64,000 nucleotides of DNA from Chloroflexota bacterium (lineage in GTDB: Bacteria > Chloroflexota > Dehalococcoidia > SM23-28-2 > JACOUE01), in the NCBI GenBank assembly GCA_016178045.1, contig JACOUE010000041.1, positions 45,518 through 109,517 of the forward strand. Direction: 5' to 3'. The position numbers and the translations under genes are program-made. Below are positions 7,384 through 12,803 of this stretch, piece by piece (positions within the stretch are counted from its first letter, which is position 1; each line of letters begins with the position of its first letter). The notes under the pieces were generated by a model that worked only from the letters and a program-made list of their open reading frames with translations, was not told the DNA's origin and searched no databases.

Positions 7384-8058
7384 CTACCAGGCGAAGTCTC
7401 GCGTCCAGTTGAGGGTGTTGTCGTTTCGGGGCCGCAGGCAATCGTCGGACGATGTATGGTTAGCTGTGGGTGTGCAGTAATCTCCGTAGGTGCCCCCATT
7501 GAACTTCACATCAGGGTTAAGCTGCCGGTGGCCAGAACTCTTTTCGTGGATATGATAGCCGCTCCAGCCGGCGGCGCAGTTGCTGTCTCCTACCATGGTG
7601 GAGGCATACCACCACGACCAGCCTGTGTAGAACCAGAATGAGAACCCGGGAAGATCAGTCTGGGTATGCACATATGTCATAGTGCCCTTGTACACGCCAA
7701 GACCGGAATCCAGAATCTTGACGGACATGTAGTCGCATCCCAAGCCGTCGACCAGATTCCCCGTCCGATCACCCCTCAGCAAATCGCCGCTGCCGGCAAG
7801 GTCGAAGACGTAACCCCGGAACTGTCCGTCCCGGTTATTCACATTGGTCCAGCTGTCCCAGTCGAGTCCCCCACCAGAGCTAGCGCCGCAGGCCCCATGA
7901 TATTTGCAGTGAAGGTGGGCCTTATCGCCTTGATCGCCTGCGGGCGGGAACATGTTGACCTGAAAACGCGACGCCGCTGCAGCGGGGCTGTAAAGGGCTG
8001 CCAAGGTGCCAACCAATACGGCCAGAGAAACTGCTACAAGGACCTTAAACCAATCCAT
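7384..8058 (-). CDS. Secreted Trp/Cys-containing protein of unknown function (pair 2)
   Basis: A 224-residue protein with a clear signal peptide: WFK, a hydrophobic stretch, then YSPAAAASR with an AxA-type cleavage site near residue 29. The mature part is rich in Trp, Gly, Asp and Asn and has six cysteines and a GYHIHEKSSGH histidine cluster near the C-terminal third, so a secreted, possibly disulphide-bonded or metal-binding role is likely. No family is recognised. It is the second gene of a two-gene module; the membrane-anchored gene lies 69 nt upstream. GC content is visibly lower than in the flanking catabolic genes. Confidence 0.75.
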   Translation of the reverse strand: MDWFKVLVAVSLAVLVGTLAALYSPAAAASRFQVNMFPPAGDQGDKAHLHCKYHGACGASSGGGLDWDSWTNVNNRDGQFRGYVFDLAGSGDLLRGDRTGNLVDGLGCDYMSVKILDSGLGVYKGTMTYVHTQTDLPGFSFWFYTGWSWWYASTMVGDSNCAAGWSGYHIHEKSSGHRQLNPDVKFNGGTYGDYCTPTANHTSSDDCLRPRNDNTLNWTRDFAW

Positions 8059-8127
8059 GTCACAACCCCCAAGGTCTAGCTCCCGTTTGGCGGGACCGCC
8101 CCCGGGTTCGCCGAATATGTCTTTTGT

Positions 8128-8856
8128 TTATTGCAACGCCGGCGCGAGAGACTCGGCCACCTTCATTACCTCATCGAAAGAGACGACTTCAGCTTGGATA
8201 ACCGTATAACCGCCCGGCTCGGGGAAGATTACGTTTGTTACAGTCGCAACGGTTCCGCCTTCAGCGACGACGGGCTTGACGACGATAGCGGAACGCCCGC
8301 CAACAGAAACTACCTGTACGCGGTCCGGCGGAGCATCAGTTTCACGCGAAGGACGGGGCTCTCTGACACGATTGATTAGGATCTGACCTTCTGCTCCCGC
8401 CGCCGCTCCGGGCAATTCATATAGCCGCCAGGCTGTATACAATTGACCGTTGTCGCGGCATATCGTAGCTCCGGGGTTGGGTGCGGTGTCCAGCGCGGCC
8501 TCGTACTCGGCCGGTTCTCTGGCTCCGGGTGGGAGGTATTTGGGCGCAGGCGGAGCGTATCCGCCCCCGGGAACCACATCGAGGCCGCCGGGACAAACTG
8601 TTCTAAGATTGGTCTGGATACCTTTGGCCGCCAGGACTTCTGGGGGCCCAAGATAAATACCCAGCAGCTCGCCGTCGAATCGTGGTTTTGCCGCATCGAT
8701 GGCTATCTCAGGGTGTTCTTCTTGCAACAACTGTGGGGAAGACGCCATGACGTCCAAAAGATAACGAACGCCGAAGAAAGCTGCCGCCGCTACGGCGAGC
8801 GGCGCGACCATGAGCATTAGCTTCCGTGTCAACTGGTTTTCCCCGGAGGTGTGCAA
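8128..8856 (-). CDS. Membrane-anchored extracytoplasmic protein of unknown function (pair 2)
   Basis: Up to 242 residues from a TTG at 8856; an ATG 13 codons in (the MLMVAPLAV region) is an alternative start. One N-terminal transmembrane helix (about residues 13-35) is followed by a soluble domain with a Pro/Gly-rich loop (about 90-110) and a beta-rich C-terminal part containing AIVVKPVVAEGG. The likely location is anchored in the membrane and facing outside. No family is recognised. It is the first gene of module 2, and upstream of it lies the duplicated segment 8901-9064. Confidence 0.7.
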   Translation of the reverse strand: MHTSGENQLTRKLMLMVAPLAVAAAAFFGVRYLLDVMASSPQLLQEEHPEIAIDAAKPRFDGELLGIYLGPPEVLAAKGIQTNLRTVCPGGLDVVPGGGYAPPAPKYLPPGAREPAEYEAALDTAPNPGATICRDNGQLYTAWRLYELPGAAAGAEGQILINRVREPRPSRETDAPPDRVQVVSVGGRSAIVVKPVVAEGGTVATVTNVIFPEPGGYTVIQAEVVSFDEVMKVAESLAPALQ

Positions 8857-8900
8857 GACCGAATAGACGCCAGCGTATCGACGGACGGATACAGTCTGCG

Positions 8901-9064
8901 CCCGTCACAACACTTCGTCAAGGGGTTTTCTTTGAAAAAGTTATGAAGGTACTCGAAAGTCGAGATTCTTCGCTTCGCTCAGAATGACAGAGGGCCTGGG
9001 CGCAATGACAGGGTCAGGCCTACCCCCGCGGCAGGCCCAGGCCGCGCATGGCGATGATGTTCCG
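8901..9064. repeat. Copy A of a duplicated promoter plus acyl-CoA-dehydrogenase-tail segment
   Basis: Positions 8901-8929 match 10047-10075 with 3 mismatches in 29, and 9020-9064 match 10186-10230 perfectly over 45 bases; the middle parts are related but differ in length. In copy B the 45 bases encode the last residues of the acyl-CoA dehydrogenase. Here they are displaced and form a new 3' end for the gene at 8941-9516. The middle contains the TTCGCTTCGCTCAGAATGAC motif, which recurs in intergenic regions of environmental genomes. Confidence 0.85.
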
Positions 9065-9516
9065 GTTGTCCAACGGTAGTCTGCGAAGTCGAGCCATACC
9101 TCCGCGCCGTTGAGGTAGTAGCCGTCATTCGTGCTGCTCCAGTACCGATATGGGCCAAACTTTACGCACGCCACCTGTGCCGGGGCACATTCGTCTCCGG
9201 TCGTGTCCTTCCTGATGGACACATCAACAACGTTGCAGTTCTGCGACCACTCACTGCCTGGGAGGATCGGCCCCCACTTGGCCCTGACATCGTCGTCGAA
9301 TAGTGTGTTATTGTAGGGGCACCAATACATCGGAGCGCCTGCAAGAGCCCACCAGCCAATAACATACGTTTCGTTACCGCGGTCCTTCGCCAAATAAACT
9401 CTGTGATCCGCTTCGGCCAGAGAGGTTATGGTCAAGCTCAATAGCGCCGCCACGCCGGCAGCCAGTACGAGAACCGCCCAGCGACTCACGCGATACCCCC
9501 AATCTAAGGCTGGCAA
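8941..9516 (-). CDS. Secreted protein of unknown function with chimeric C-terminus (pair 1)
   Basis: A 191-residue protein with an N-terminal hydrophobic segment (about residues 13-35) ending in SLAEADHR, which looks like a signal peptide. The mature part contains WCPYN, SQNCN, DECAPAQVACV and a YYLNGAEVWLDFADYRW strand. After residue about 152 the reading frame runs into the duplicated acyl-CoA-dehydrogenase tail, in a shifted frame, and then into an intergenic repeat, so the last 40 residues (from TTGTSSPC onward) are not native. The original 3' end was probably lost. It is the second gene of module 1, 39 nt after the anchored gene. Confidence 0.7.
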   Translation of the reverse strand: MPALDWGYRVSRWAVLVLAAGVAALLSLTITSLAEADHRVYLAKDRGNETYVIGWWALAGAPMYWCPYNNTLFDDDVRAKWGPILPGSEWSQNCNVVDVSIRKDTTGDECAPAQVACVKFGPYRYWSSTNDGYYLNGAEVWLDFADYRWTTGTSSPCAAWACRGGRPDPVIAPRPSVILSEAKNLDFRVPS

Positions 9517-9555
9517 TATCCGTAGCCACGAGGGGCAGCAGGAGGCGCCAGCGGC

Positions 9556-10029
9556 TCACGGGGCGCTGTTTTCAATTAGCTGAAAATCCTCTTCATCTTC
9601 AGGGTCTACCTTCCACAGGACGACTTTTCCCGTGTCGGCATCAAGCCACACGCGCGACCTTCCACGTTCGATTTCCCAGTAGTGGGTCGGCCACGGAGAC
9701 TGGACTCCAGGCGCAGGTTCGCCGATGACCTCGAATATCGTCGCACCCTTGGGCAGCAGTATAGTTCGGGGGCCTATGTCAATCTCGATTGGTTCCGGTA
9801 CCGGCTCGCTGAGGAAGATTCCTCGCTCCCTCAAATAGGCCTCCGCCTCCTCGCGCGTCAGCCTGACGGGCGGTTCCGGGGACGGGGCTGGGGGCTCGAA
9901 GGAGGGTGGCGTGGGCAGTGGTGGTGGCGGTTCTTCGCCTGTCGCCAGGTTCACTCCCCACCAGATCCCCGCAGCAACCCCTGCCGCCACCACCAGGCCA
10001 AGAGCGTTTCGCAGGGAAATACCGGCCAT
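9556..10029 (-). CDS. Membrane-anchored protein with proline-rich linker, unknown function (pair 1)
   Basis: A 157-residue protein: transmembrane helix at about residues 8-27, a proline-rich spacer (about 33-55, many P, E and S), then a small domain with LTREEAEAYLRERGI, TILLPKGATIFEVIGE and a strand SRVWLDADTGKVVLWKV. The proline-rich tether suggests a domain held away from the membrane on the outer face. A TTGACA-17-CATAAT promoter ends only a few bases from the ATG, so the mRNA is probably leaderless. No family is recognised. First gene of module 1. Confidence 0.72.
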   Translation of the reverse strand: MAGISLRNALGLVVAAGVAAGIWWGVNLATGEEPPPPLPTPPSFEPPAPSPEPPVRLTREEAEAYLRERGIFLSEPVPEPIEIDIGPRTILLPKGATIFEVIGEPAPGVQSPWPTHYWEIERGRSRVWLDADTGKVVLWKVDPEDEEDFQLIENSAP

Positions 10030-10038
10030 GGCGGCCGC

Positions 10039-10067
10039 ATTATGCTCCCGTCACAATACGTTGTCAA
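10039..10067 (-). promoter_or_regulatory. Strong promoter giving a leaderless transcript
   Basis: On the minus strand TTGACA (10067-10062) and CATAAT (10044-10039) are 17 bases apart, close to the sigma-70 consensus. Transcription would begin about three bases before the ATG at 10029. The equivalent bases in copy A read TTGACG-17-CAGACT, a weakened version. Confidence 0.65.
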
Positions 10068-10230
10068 GGGGTTTTAGAACAGCTTGTCATGAAATCTTGC
10101 GAACAATGGCAGAGTGTCTGCAAAACCTGTCATTGCTTCGCTTCGCCTGCCTGCCAGGCAGACGGGCTCGCACTGACAGGCGGGGCTACCCCCGCGGCAG
10201 GCCCAGGCCGCGCATGGCGATGATGTTCCG
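10047..10230. repeat. Copy B of the duplicated promoter plus acyl-CoA-dehydrogenase-tail segment
   Basis: This is the copy in original context: its right end (10186-10230) encodes the C-terminus of the acyl-CoA dehydrogenase and its left end carries the promoter of the following gene pair. It matches copy A at 8901-9064. Two copies, each followed by an anchored-protein gene and a secreted-protein gene, indicate an old tandem duplication. Confidence 0.85.
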
Positions 10231-11379
10231 CATCACCTCCGACGTGCCGGCGGCGATGGTCGTGGCCACCGAGGCGACGTAGTAGTCGGCGATGCGCCCG
10301 GCCAGGGGCGCCCAGCGGCTCCCCGGCTTGAGCTGCCCGCCCAGGCCCAGGACCTCGATGCCCGCCCGCGCCAGCCGCTGCTGCAGCTCCGAGCCGTAAA
10401 GCTTGGAGATGGACGCCTCCGCGTTGGGGATCCGTCCCTGCGACTGGAGCCAGGCGACGCGGTAGGCGAGCAGGCGGCCGGCGTGGAACTCGATGTGTAG
10501 CTCCGCCAGCTTGTTGCGGAGGGGCTCGCGGTCGATGATGCGGCCGCCGTCGCGCGCCGTCTCCCGCGAGTAGGCGACCAGCTCCTCGTAGGTGCGGAAG
10601 CCGGCCACGACGCGGTTGATGCCGGACCGCTCGAAGTCCAGGGTGGCGGCGGCCACGTACCAGCCGCGGTTCAGCTCGCCGACCAGGCAGTCGCGGGGGA
10701 CGCGGACGTTGTCGAAGAAGACCTGGTTGAACGTCTGGCGGCCGGTCATGTCGGCCAGGGGCTGGATGGTGATGCCCGGCGTCTTCATGTCGAGGAGGAA
10801 GTAGCTGATCCCCTTGTGCTTGGGGGCGTCGGGATCGGTGCGAGCGAGCAGGATCATCCAGTCGGCGACGTTGGCCAGCGACGTCCAGATCTTCTGGCCG
10901 TTGACCACGAAGTAGTCGCCCTCGGCCACCGCCGCCGTCTGGAGGGAGGCGAGGTCGGAGCCCGAGCCGGGCTCGCTGAACCCCTGGCACCAGATCACCT
11001 CGGCGCCGGCGATGGCTGGCAGGTGCCGCCCCTTCTGCTCCTCGTTGCCGAAGACGATGATCGTCGGCCCCACCCGGTCCGGGCCCACGCCCAACTGCTG
11101 GGGGGCGCGGTGGTAGGCCATCTCCTCGTTGTAGATGAGCTGGTTCATGTGGCCCGCGGCCAGGCCCCCGTGCTCCTTGGGCCAGGCCAAGGTCAGCCAC
11201 CCCTTGCGGGCGAGCTTCTTCTGGAAGCTCCGCATCTCCTCGAAGCCGCGGCCGCCGCCGTAGCCGAGCGGGCTCTCGGCGCCGGCGCCTTCCGTGACCT
11301 CCTGCGGCCACTCGCCGCGGACGAACCCGCGTACCTCCCGGCGGAAGGCGTCCTCTTCGGGGGAAAAGCGGAACTCCAT
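10186..11379 (-). CDS. Acyl-CoA dehydrogenase
   Basis: A 397-residue flavoprotein that oxidises acyl-CoA thioesters at C2-C3 in the cytosol. The N-terminal helical domain begins MEFRFSPEEDAFRREVR. The FAD/substrate strand segment has WCQGFSEPGSGSDLAS and INGQKIWTS-like VNGQKIWTSLAN, and the C-terminal domain ends with TSEVMRNIIAMRG. Full length for the family. The start at 11379 has AGGAGA five bases upstream; an in-frame extension further upstream lacks this. The 45 bases at its 3' end are duplicated at 9020-9064. A crotonase, an SDR and an MFS carrier lie upstream on the same strand, suggesting an acyl-CoA degradative region. Confidence 0.92.
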   Translation of the reverse strand: MEFRFSPEEDAFRREVRGFVRGEWPQEVTEGAGAESPLGYGGGRGFEEMRSFQKKLARKGWLTLAWPKEHGGLAAGHMNQLIYNEEMAYHRAPQQLGVGPDRVGPTIIVFGNEEQKGRHLPAIAGAEVIWCQGFSEPGSGSDLASLQTAAVAEGDYFVVNGQKIWTSLANVADWMILLARTDPDAPKHKGISYFLLDMKTPGITIQPLADMTGRQTFNQVFFDNVRVPRDCLVGELNRGWYVAAATLDFERSGINRVVAGFRTYEELVAYSRETARDGGRIIDREPLRNKLAELHIEFHAGRLLAYRVAWLQSQGRIPNAEASISKLYGSELQQRLARAGIEVLGLGGQLKPGSRWAPLAGRIADYYVASVATTIAAGTSEVMRNIIAMRGLGLPRG

Positions 11380-11445
11380 CGACTCTCCTGACGTGGACGG
11401 CAGGCGCTTCGGGCGCCGACCAGTATATACTGTTGGCAACCAGCG

Positions 11446-11985: not shown

Positions 11986-12789
11986 TCAGCGCCCCTTGAA
12001 CTGCGGCTCGCGCTTCTCCACAAAGGCCCGCGGGCCCTCGCGGGCGTCCTCGGTGCTCTGGGCGATGAGCATAGCCCCCTGCGCCGCCTCCAGCGCCTCG
12101 TCCACATCGGTGCGGAGGCCCCGGTACACTAGCCGCTTCGCCAGATGGATGGCCACCGCCGGCCCCCGCGCCAGGCGCTGGGCGAAGTCGCGCGTGTAGG
12201 GCATCAGCTCGTCATGGGGGACGACGGCGCTCACGTAGCCGACCCGCAGCGCCTCCTTCGCGTCGATGATGTCGCCCGTCCAGATCAGCTCCAACGCCTT
12301 GGCGATGCCCACGATGCGGGGCAGGTAGTAGCAGCCGCCGTCGCCGGGGCTGAGGCCCATGCGCACGTAGGTCATACCGAATCGGGCGTTCTCGGAGGCG
12401 ATGCGGATGTCGGCCATGGAGGCCATGTCCATCCCCGCTCCCACCGCCGCCCCGTTCACGGCCGCGATGTACGGCTTGTCGAGCTCGGCGAGGAGGCGGG
12501 GGATGCGCTGGACGCTGTCGCGCAGGAAGTTGCGGTTTTCGGCCAGCGACCGCTCCCTCTGCATCAGCCCCTCCGCCGCCCCGGCGCCCACGTCCGCCCC
12601 AGAGCAGAAGCCCCGGCCGGCCCCCGTCAGGACGATCGCCCGCACGGCGTCGTCGAGCCGGGCGTCCTGGAGGGAGGCGTACCACTCGTCCAGCATCTGG
12701 CGGGTGAAGGCGTTCATCCGCTCGGGCCGGTTGAGGGTGATTGTGGCGATGCCGTCCGCCTTCTCGAAGATGATCTGCTCGAAGTTCAT
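11986..12789 (-). CDS. Enoyl-CoA hydratase/isomerase family protein
   Basis: A 267-residue crotonase-fold protein. The oxyanion-hole segments GRGFCSGADVG and NGAAVGAGMDM are present. The two glutamates that catalyse hydration in classical enoyl-CoA hydratase fall at GMDMASM (Asp) and FGMTYVRMG (Tyr), so this enzyme probably catalyses a different crotonase reaction such as isomerisation, or has lost activity. The ATG at 12789 is six bases after AAAGGGGA; a TTG two codons earlier is possible. A palindromic repeat separates it from the SDR gene upstream. Confidence 0.88.
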   Translation of the reverse strand: MNFEQIIFEKADGIATITLNRPERMNAFTRQMLDEWYASLQDARLDDAVRAIVLTGAGRGFCSGADVGAGAAEGLMQRERSLAENRNFLRDSVQRIPRLLAELDKPYIAAVNGAAVGAGMDMASMADIRIASENARFGMTYVRMGLSPGDGGCYYLPRIVGIAKALELIWTGDIIDAKEALRVGYVSAVVPHDELMPYTRDFAQRLARGPAVAIHLAKRLVYRGLRTDVDEALEAAQGAMLIAQSTEDAREGPRAFVEKREPQFKGR

Positions 12790-12803
12790 GATCAATCCCC
12801 TTT

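Follow-up and report, generated by a model that had tools for sequence, protein, structure and literature searches.

Genes of secreted hydrolases adjoin those of partner proteins in several described systems. Lysostaphin is accompanied by Lif, a FemABX-like factor and not an anchored binding protein. To judge from a reference title in PMC9662197, the same description fits Zif, the factor that accompanies zoocin A. Secreted metallopeptidases of the M23A type follow the pattern H(x)12D, His and HxH, with LasA showing the H(x)12D form (PMC9662197). Tsi3 is an immunity protein that neutralises a muramidase acting on peptidoglycan, and its resemblance to MOG1 and PsbP was noted by the authors (PMC3792639). 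Among the Dehalococcoidia, Tepidiforma has peptidoglycan, which most later members of the class have lost (PMC10284905).

The window, i.e., the whole 64,000-nucleotide stretch of DNA analysed here, carries four ORFs behind an acyl-CoA dehydrogenase (ACAD) gene. All four lie on the minus strand and form two pairs of an anchored and a secreted protein, A1 and S1 (unit 1) and A2 and S2 (unit 2). ORF calls and Pfam confirmed the ORF coordinates and the ACAD identity given in a previous sequence-only reading of this DNA, and the anchored-then-secreted layout that it described was recovered in both pairs. We propose that each anchored protein is the cognate partner of a secreted zinc hydrolase, more likely as immunity protein or inhibitor than as foldase, and that two accessory operons are stacked behind ACAD. 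From the sequences and one structural model, we give this proposal an even chance. The features of the locus are:

10186..11439, minus strand: ACAD (Pfam PF00441/02770/02771), whose last 15 codons are copied downstream
10183..10230, minus strand: original copy of the ACAD 3′ end, from the repeat comparison
10084..10182, minus strand: intergenic stretch with interspersed-repeat sequence (CCTGTCA..GCAATGACAGG), matching at several other places in the genome
10030..10075, minus strand: unit 1 promoter segment, AAAACCCCTTGACA-N17-CATAAT, an 11/12 sigma-70 match
9556..10029, minus strand: A1, with a transmembrane anchor, a Pro-rich linker and a small outside domain; relatives at L026, L027, L028, L077 and others
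9065..9489, minus strand: native part of S1, the N-terminal half of a secreted matrixin-like metalloprotease, from the matrixin-profile score and the junction codons
9017..9064, minus strand: copy of the ACAD tail, joined to S1 at 9064/9065, from the repeat comparison
8945..9006, minus strand: intergenic stretch with an interspersed repeat (TGTCATTCTGAGCGAAGCGAAGAATCTCGACTTTC) that recurs at about ten other genome sites
8884..8929, minus strand: unit 2 promoter segment, AAAACCCCTTGACG-N17-CAGACT, with a weaker -10
8128..8856, minus strand: A2, with a transmembrane anchor and an outside domain modelled as Mog1/PsbP-like (AF2 model and VIA-align); adjoins S2 relatives
7384..8058, minus strand: S2, secreted, with an M23A (LasA)-like active-site pattern and conserved cysteines, from motif conservation

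Relatives of S2 were found in 20 of the 393 genomes of the class. An A2-like ORF directly adjoins nearly every S2 locus, mostly with a 4-bp overlap of start and stop, and tandem A2-S2 copies occur at several loci; the order of the two genes is reversed at two (L051 and L069). A narrow S2 profile run against named genome contigs retrieved six loci, with Dehalococcoidia MAGs, Tepidiforma MAGs and Tepidiforma flava YIM 72310 among the carriers, and the complete chromosome of the last (L103) holds two A2-S2 pairs in succession. The identities of A2 and S2 co-vary (Mantel r 0.88, p 2e-4, 21 pairs), the mean identity in this pair family being 24% for A and 26% for S.

S2 presents the pattern H54-x11-D66, Y129-x-H131 and H169-x-H171. 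H131 is conserved in 22/22 sequences, D66 and H169 in 21/22, and H54 and H171 in 20/22; the family cysteines lie at 51, 57, 108 and 161. Across the family, the first spacing is mostly x11-x17, and the middle histidine stands about 38-47 residues ahead of HxH. The corresponding distance in LasA is 39. When compared with M23 domains of relatives, the S2 profile beat all 60 column shuffles, yet the probability was just 3-15%. Matches to M23 were absent for 11 S2 members in Pfam and for 9 in NCBIfam, and the S2 profile gave 0 matches against PDB sequences. A1, A2, S1 and S2 belong to no named family of the libraries searched, and an S2 query against plasmids found no match. The AF2 model of S2 was poor (pLDDT 43.7) and unusable, and a Foldseek search with it returned nothing. 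The zinc ligands follow the M23A rule, and S2 is thus predicted to be M23A-like; we prefer this label to "M23" since the motif is present but a curated-family match is absent.

In unit 1, the relatives of A1 at L026-L028 each precede a secreted protein with HExxHxxGLxxR/Y. The L027 proteins exceed the Pfam cut-off for Peptidase_M10 (PF00413, matrixin), whereas L026 and L028 have the HExxH motif and no Pfam match. A1-type proteins stand ahead of full matrixin-like enzymes in four genomes (G196, G208, G292 and G059), with two tandem pairs in G208 and about four in G059. The sequence-only reading had predicted that the two-gene order would recur in relatives, and it does so for both pair families across the class. 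S1 scored 30.1 bits against the matrixin profile, while the best of 1803 scored shuffles, in which the signal peptide was kept intact, reached 10.7. The match covers the N-terminal part of the relatives' enzymes. The native sequence of S1 ends at YRWTT|G; the corresponding stretch of L026 is YRYTTGHELGH. HExxH is absent from S1, which stops at YRWTTG and continues into the ACAD tail. The whole S1 ORF spans 8941-9516 on the minus strand, and its last ~38 residues are not native, being an out-of-frame ACAD tail copy followed by an interspersed repeat (VILSEAKNLDF) that recurs at about ten further genome places. S1 probably starts at GTG 9489 and not at TTG 9516. Its start region occurs twice, 70 nt from each other and in different frames, with a second GTGAGYCGCTGG at 9559 overlapping the A1 stop. 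Since S1 is cut before the zinc site, an active enzyme is probably not produced from unit 1, whose A1 is nevertheless intact. We also observed a further matrixin in this genome (C24) that is preceded by a third, unrelated anchored protein, and a fourth kind of anchored protein in G163 (L078).

By a hand count, murC is matched at E<1e-60 in every one of the 20 genomes with S2; the match in G332 is the weakest of them and is probably fragmentary. In the class as a whole, 153 of the 393 genomes (about 40%) pass the curated murC cut-off. At the family level, S2 is confined to families with murC (6/6 within 25/99; hypergeometric p about 1.6e-4, by hand). Three of the four carriers of A1-matrixin pairs (G208, G292 and G059) are without a true murC. 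The occurrence of S2 with murC and of matrixin pairs without it is expected if S2 cuts the wall and the matrixin cuts protein. The S2-murC association is partly phylogenetic, with shared ancestry accounting for part of it.

The AF2 model of A2 (pLDDT 71.7, pTM 0.70) has Tsi3 as its best VIA-align neighbour, together with DcrB, LpqN, MOG1, PsbP and the C-terminal domain of RseB, all at Z 5-7; a family absent from the VIA-align list is not thereby excluded. The match to Tsi3 has a Z of 7.0 over 98 residues at 3.4 Å, a Z within the range reached by unrelated models, and Foldseek with the A2 model gave no match under 0.001. The neighbours form a consistent Mog1/PsbP-like class, which suggests, but does not decide, the fold of A2.

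In the mechanism that we propose, S2 would be exported and would cut peptidoglycan cross-links as an M23A/LasA-like endopeptidase. A2, at the outer face of the membrane, would bind S2 and keep the producer's own wall safe as its immunity protein or inhibitor. Unit 1 would follow the same design with a matrixin-type protease; its enzyme gene is cut ahead of the zinc site, which would leave A1 as an orphan partner. The "unknown function" of the sequence-only reading can be narrowed to a secreted zinc-hydrolase-like protein with a cognate anchored partner, the enzyme being truncated in unit 1. In a wider form, to which we give somewhat less than an even chance, peptidoglycan-bearing Dehalococcoidia would have an unnamed two-gene family comprising a divergent M23A-like wall hydrolase that leaves by ordinary secretion and an anchored Mog1/PsbP-like immunity protein. 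The design would be reused with unrelated partners for matrixins, and its units could come to be stacked behind a housekeeping gene through recombination.

The same gene order would be expected of a foldase or a docking partner, too, which limits the immunity reading. Besides, M23 autolysins work on the wall of their own producer without such a partner, which counts against an immunity role. The anchored protein could instead be a steric foldase in trans, folding a propeptide-less hydrolase before release in the manner of Lif/LipH. We regard this as unlikely, though a serious candidate. Lipase foldases form an extended helical clamp, whereas the domain of A2 is modelled as a compact Mog1/PsbP-like sandwich. 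Furthermore, A1 stayed intact although the catalytic half of S1 is gone, as would more readily be expected of an immunity gene; the event could, however, simply be a recent one. On the other hand, the layout of anchor, linker and outside domain is that of the membrane-anchored lipase foldases (PMC13381987); LasA needs a propeptide, according to a reference title in PMC9662197, and S2 consists of signal and domain only, with no propeptide. The tight coupling and co-divergence of A and S would fit a foldase as well. It appears distinctly improbable to us that the anchored protein serves as a docking receptor without any conflict role, keeping a hydrolase for wall remodelling or nutrient release at the surface. 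The Tepidiforma envelope, which has peptidoglycan, an S-layer and surface protein complexes (PMC10284905), would suit such a receptor, as would the conserved A-S order; but the patchy distribution, the low GC3, the tandem copies and an A as divergent as its S are more reminiscent of accessory genes used in conflict. We rank immunity or inhibition as the first candidate for the role of the anchored protein, with foldase and docking functions behind it.

The two units share the DNA that lies upstream of their genes. The ACAD tail is the same at 47 of 48 nt (9017-9064 and 10183-10230), and the promoter segments 8892-8929 and 10038-10075 have 84% identity over a 38-nt repeat; aligned from AAAACCCC onward, they agree at 32/38 positions, a score reached by 0/500 shuffles. 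The promoter core CCCCTTGAC(N6)TTGTGACG has exactly two exact copies in the 2.03-Mb genome, both at this locus. The alignment and the core together indicate that the upstream DNA was truly duplicated, and the shared ACAD-tail/promoter segment of the sequence-only reading is thereby borne out. A general promoter motif of the genome was rejected, the core being confined to these two sites. An ACAD paralogue elsewhere in the genome (C22) has a near copy of the tail (94-96%); therefore, tail identity cannot date the duplication. From tail to promoter, the intergenic stretches of the two units align merely as well as the best of 500 shuffles, because different interspersed repeats sit there. The A1 promoter is stronger than that of A2, and its -10 lies very near the ATG at 10029, so the mRNA would be nearly leaderless.

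The GC content of the island is about 0.56-0.65 against 0.64-0.75 in the surroundings, and its GC3 is 0.59-0.68 against 0.94-0.96 in neighbour genes; by its low GC3, the island stands out as accessory. In G196, the A1-matrixin pair is likewise low in GC3, next to a neighbour at 0.96. This pair lies, in a different orientation, near an enoyl-CoA hydratase that is 74.5% identical to one beside the present locus. An integrated element with attachment-site repeats was weighed because the 48-bp repeat sits at a gene 3′ end; it was rejected, as the 2.9-kb island is without a recombinase gene and the junction falls inside S1. Phage origin was also rejected, with no PHROGs family above chance.

Similarity between the two pairs was undetectable at the nucleotide level, and hhalign gave a probability of 1.6 for A1 against A2 and 2.8 for S2 against the matrixin family. 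The sequence-only reading had seen "hardly any sequence" in common between the pairs, and profiles reveal none either. Its "duplicated, fast-diverging module" gives way to two unrelated pair families, the duplicated DNA, as far as sequence comparison tells, being the ACAD tail and upstream segment only. Thus, its observation is confirmed and its interpretation partly supported. Other genomes of the class contain distinct relatives of either pair, and the two thus differed before they came to stand in tandem. Unrelated anchored proteins beside secreted hydrolases would mean that the common design is an anchored partner plus a hydrolase, with partners of different origin. Duplication of a single module in place, its genes then diverging past recognition, would account for the common tail and promoter segment, and tandem copying would likewise truncate S1 at the junction; nevertheless, we consider this reading extremely improbable. 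The 48-bp tail, although unconstrained, is 98% kept, whereas between the genes there is no similarity, and other families contain separate relatives of each gene. Recombination at the ACAD 3′ end is the probable origin of the stacking. A fragment with the ACAD 3′ end, promoter, A1 and S1 would have recombined into an ACAD-promoter-A2-S2 locus. The joining of ACAD-promoter-A1-matrixin and ACAD-promoter-A2-S2 alleles would have relied on homology at the ACAD end and, within the matrixin gene (S1) at the other, on a short-homology joint of about 3 nt (CGG). The resulting order would be full ACAD, promoter, A1, truncated enzyme, ACAD tail, promoter, A2 and S2. Recombination of two alleles would explain why only tail and promoter are common to both units. 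Mis-assembly of the metagenome, chaining two strain alleles behind ACAD, is very unlikely in our view. The genome is an 85-contig draft of 89.8% completeness, with the junction exactly at the 48-bp repeat and within a gene; but assembly k-mers are usually longer than 48 bp, and, with S1 and the ACAD tail overlapping by at most about 3 nt, chimeric reads would be required for a graph misjoin. Even then, the existence of both pair families would not be affected.

If the proposal is true, A2 and S2 are two protein families without Pfam or NCBIfam entry that now have a testable role, in a class in which there has been little work on cell walls and antagonism. The cultured Tepidiforma flava combines tandem A2-S2 pairs with confirmed peptidoglycan (PMC10284905). 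The locus would also illustrate how unrelated enzyme-partner units are stacked behind a shared promoter segment by recombination, leaving a truncated enzyme next to an intact partner.

S2 resembles the M23A metallopeptidases (beta-lytic protease, LasA and pseudoalterin) in being secreted and in its H(x)n-D/YxH/HxH order, long first spacing and conserved cysteines. Unlike them, it has no significant Pfam M23 or PDB match and no propeptide, and it has ~20 extra residues between D and the middle histidine and an adjacent anchored partner. The relatives of S1 share HExxHxxGLxxR/Y with the matrixins (Pfam PF00413, family M10), and those at L027 pass the Pfam cut-off; their C-terminal domain and anchored partner are foreign to that family, and S1 itself is without the zinc site. 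A1 and A2 share with the lipase foldases (Lif, LipH) a membrane anchor, a linker, an outside domain and a gene adjoining that of a secreted hydrolase, while the predicted fold and the class of the enzyme differ. Zoocin A/Zif and lysostaphin/Lif have an M23 exoenzyme gene beside a self-protection gene, an arrangement like that proposed for unit 2, although their protection factor is not an anchored binding protein. Tse3-Tsi3 differs from unit 2 in using a type VI system where S2 has an ordinary signal sequence, in the muramidase nature of Tse3, and in having no sequence relation to it. Nevertheless, this system combines a wall hydrolase with an immunity protein outside the inner membrane, as unit 2 is predicted to do, and its Tsi3 is the top neighbour of the A2 model.

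The truncated S1 gene (matrixin-like secreted protein, cut before HExxH) has GTGAGYCGCTGG twice at its start, 70 nt apart and in differing frames, and this repeat at window 9489-9559 is a second scar in the gene. Interspersed repeats occur at numerous sites of the genome, including the following in the window, and the spurious tail VILSEAKNLDF of the S1 ORF is translated read-through of such a repeat.

8959-8993 and 10084-10182: repeats of the TGTCATTCTGAGCGAAGCGAAGAATCTC kind, with sequences related to it

Besides the window's two pairs, contig C24 of the same genome carries a third anchored and secreted pair, its GC3 likewise low and its genes joined by an ATGA overlap.

L110:843-1457 and 1454-2134: two ORFs, anchored and secreted

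The secreted protein is matrixin-like, with HEVGHTLGHAEHY; the anchored protein bears no relation to A1 or A2, the window's anchored partners. In genome G163 (locus L078), a matrixin with HELGHIFGLDEYY has an anchored-protein gene 6 nt ahead, whose product (anchor, Pro-rich linker and outside domain) is once more an unrelated partner. S2, the secreted protein of unit 2, lies ahead of A2, in reversed order, at two loci of one genome (L051 and L069, both G061).

At L109 (G196:C6:42000-60000), the enoyl-CoA hydratase near the A1-matrixin pair is 74.5% identical to that of the window (11986-12795). The orientation at L109 differs from that in the window; the proximity is possibly an old synteny.
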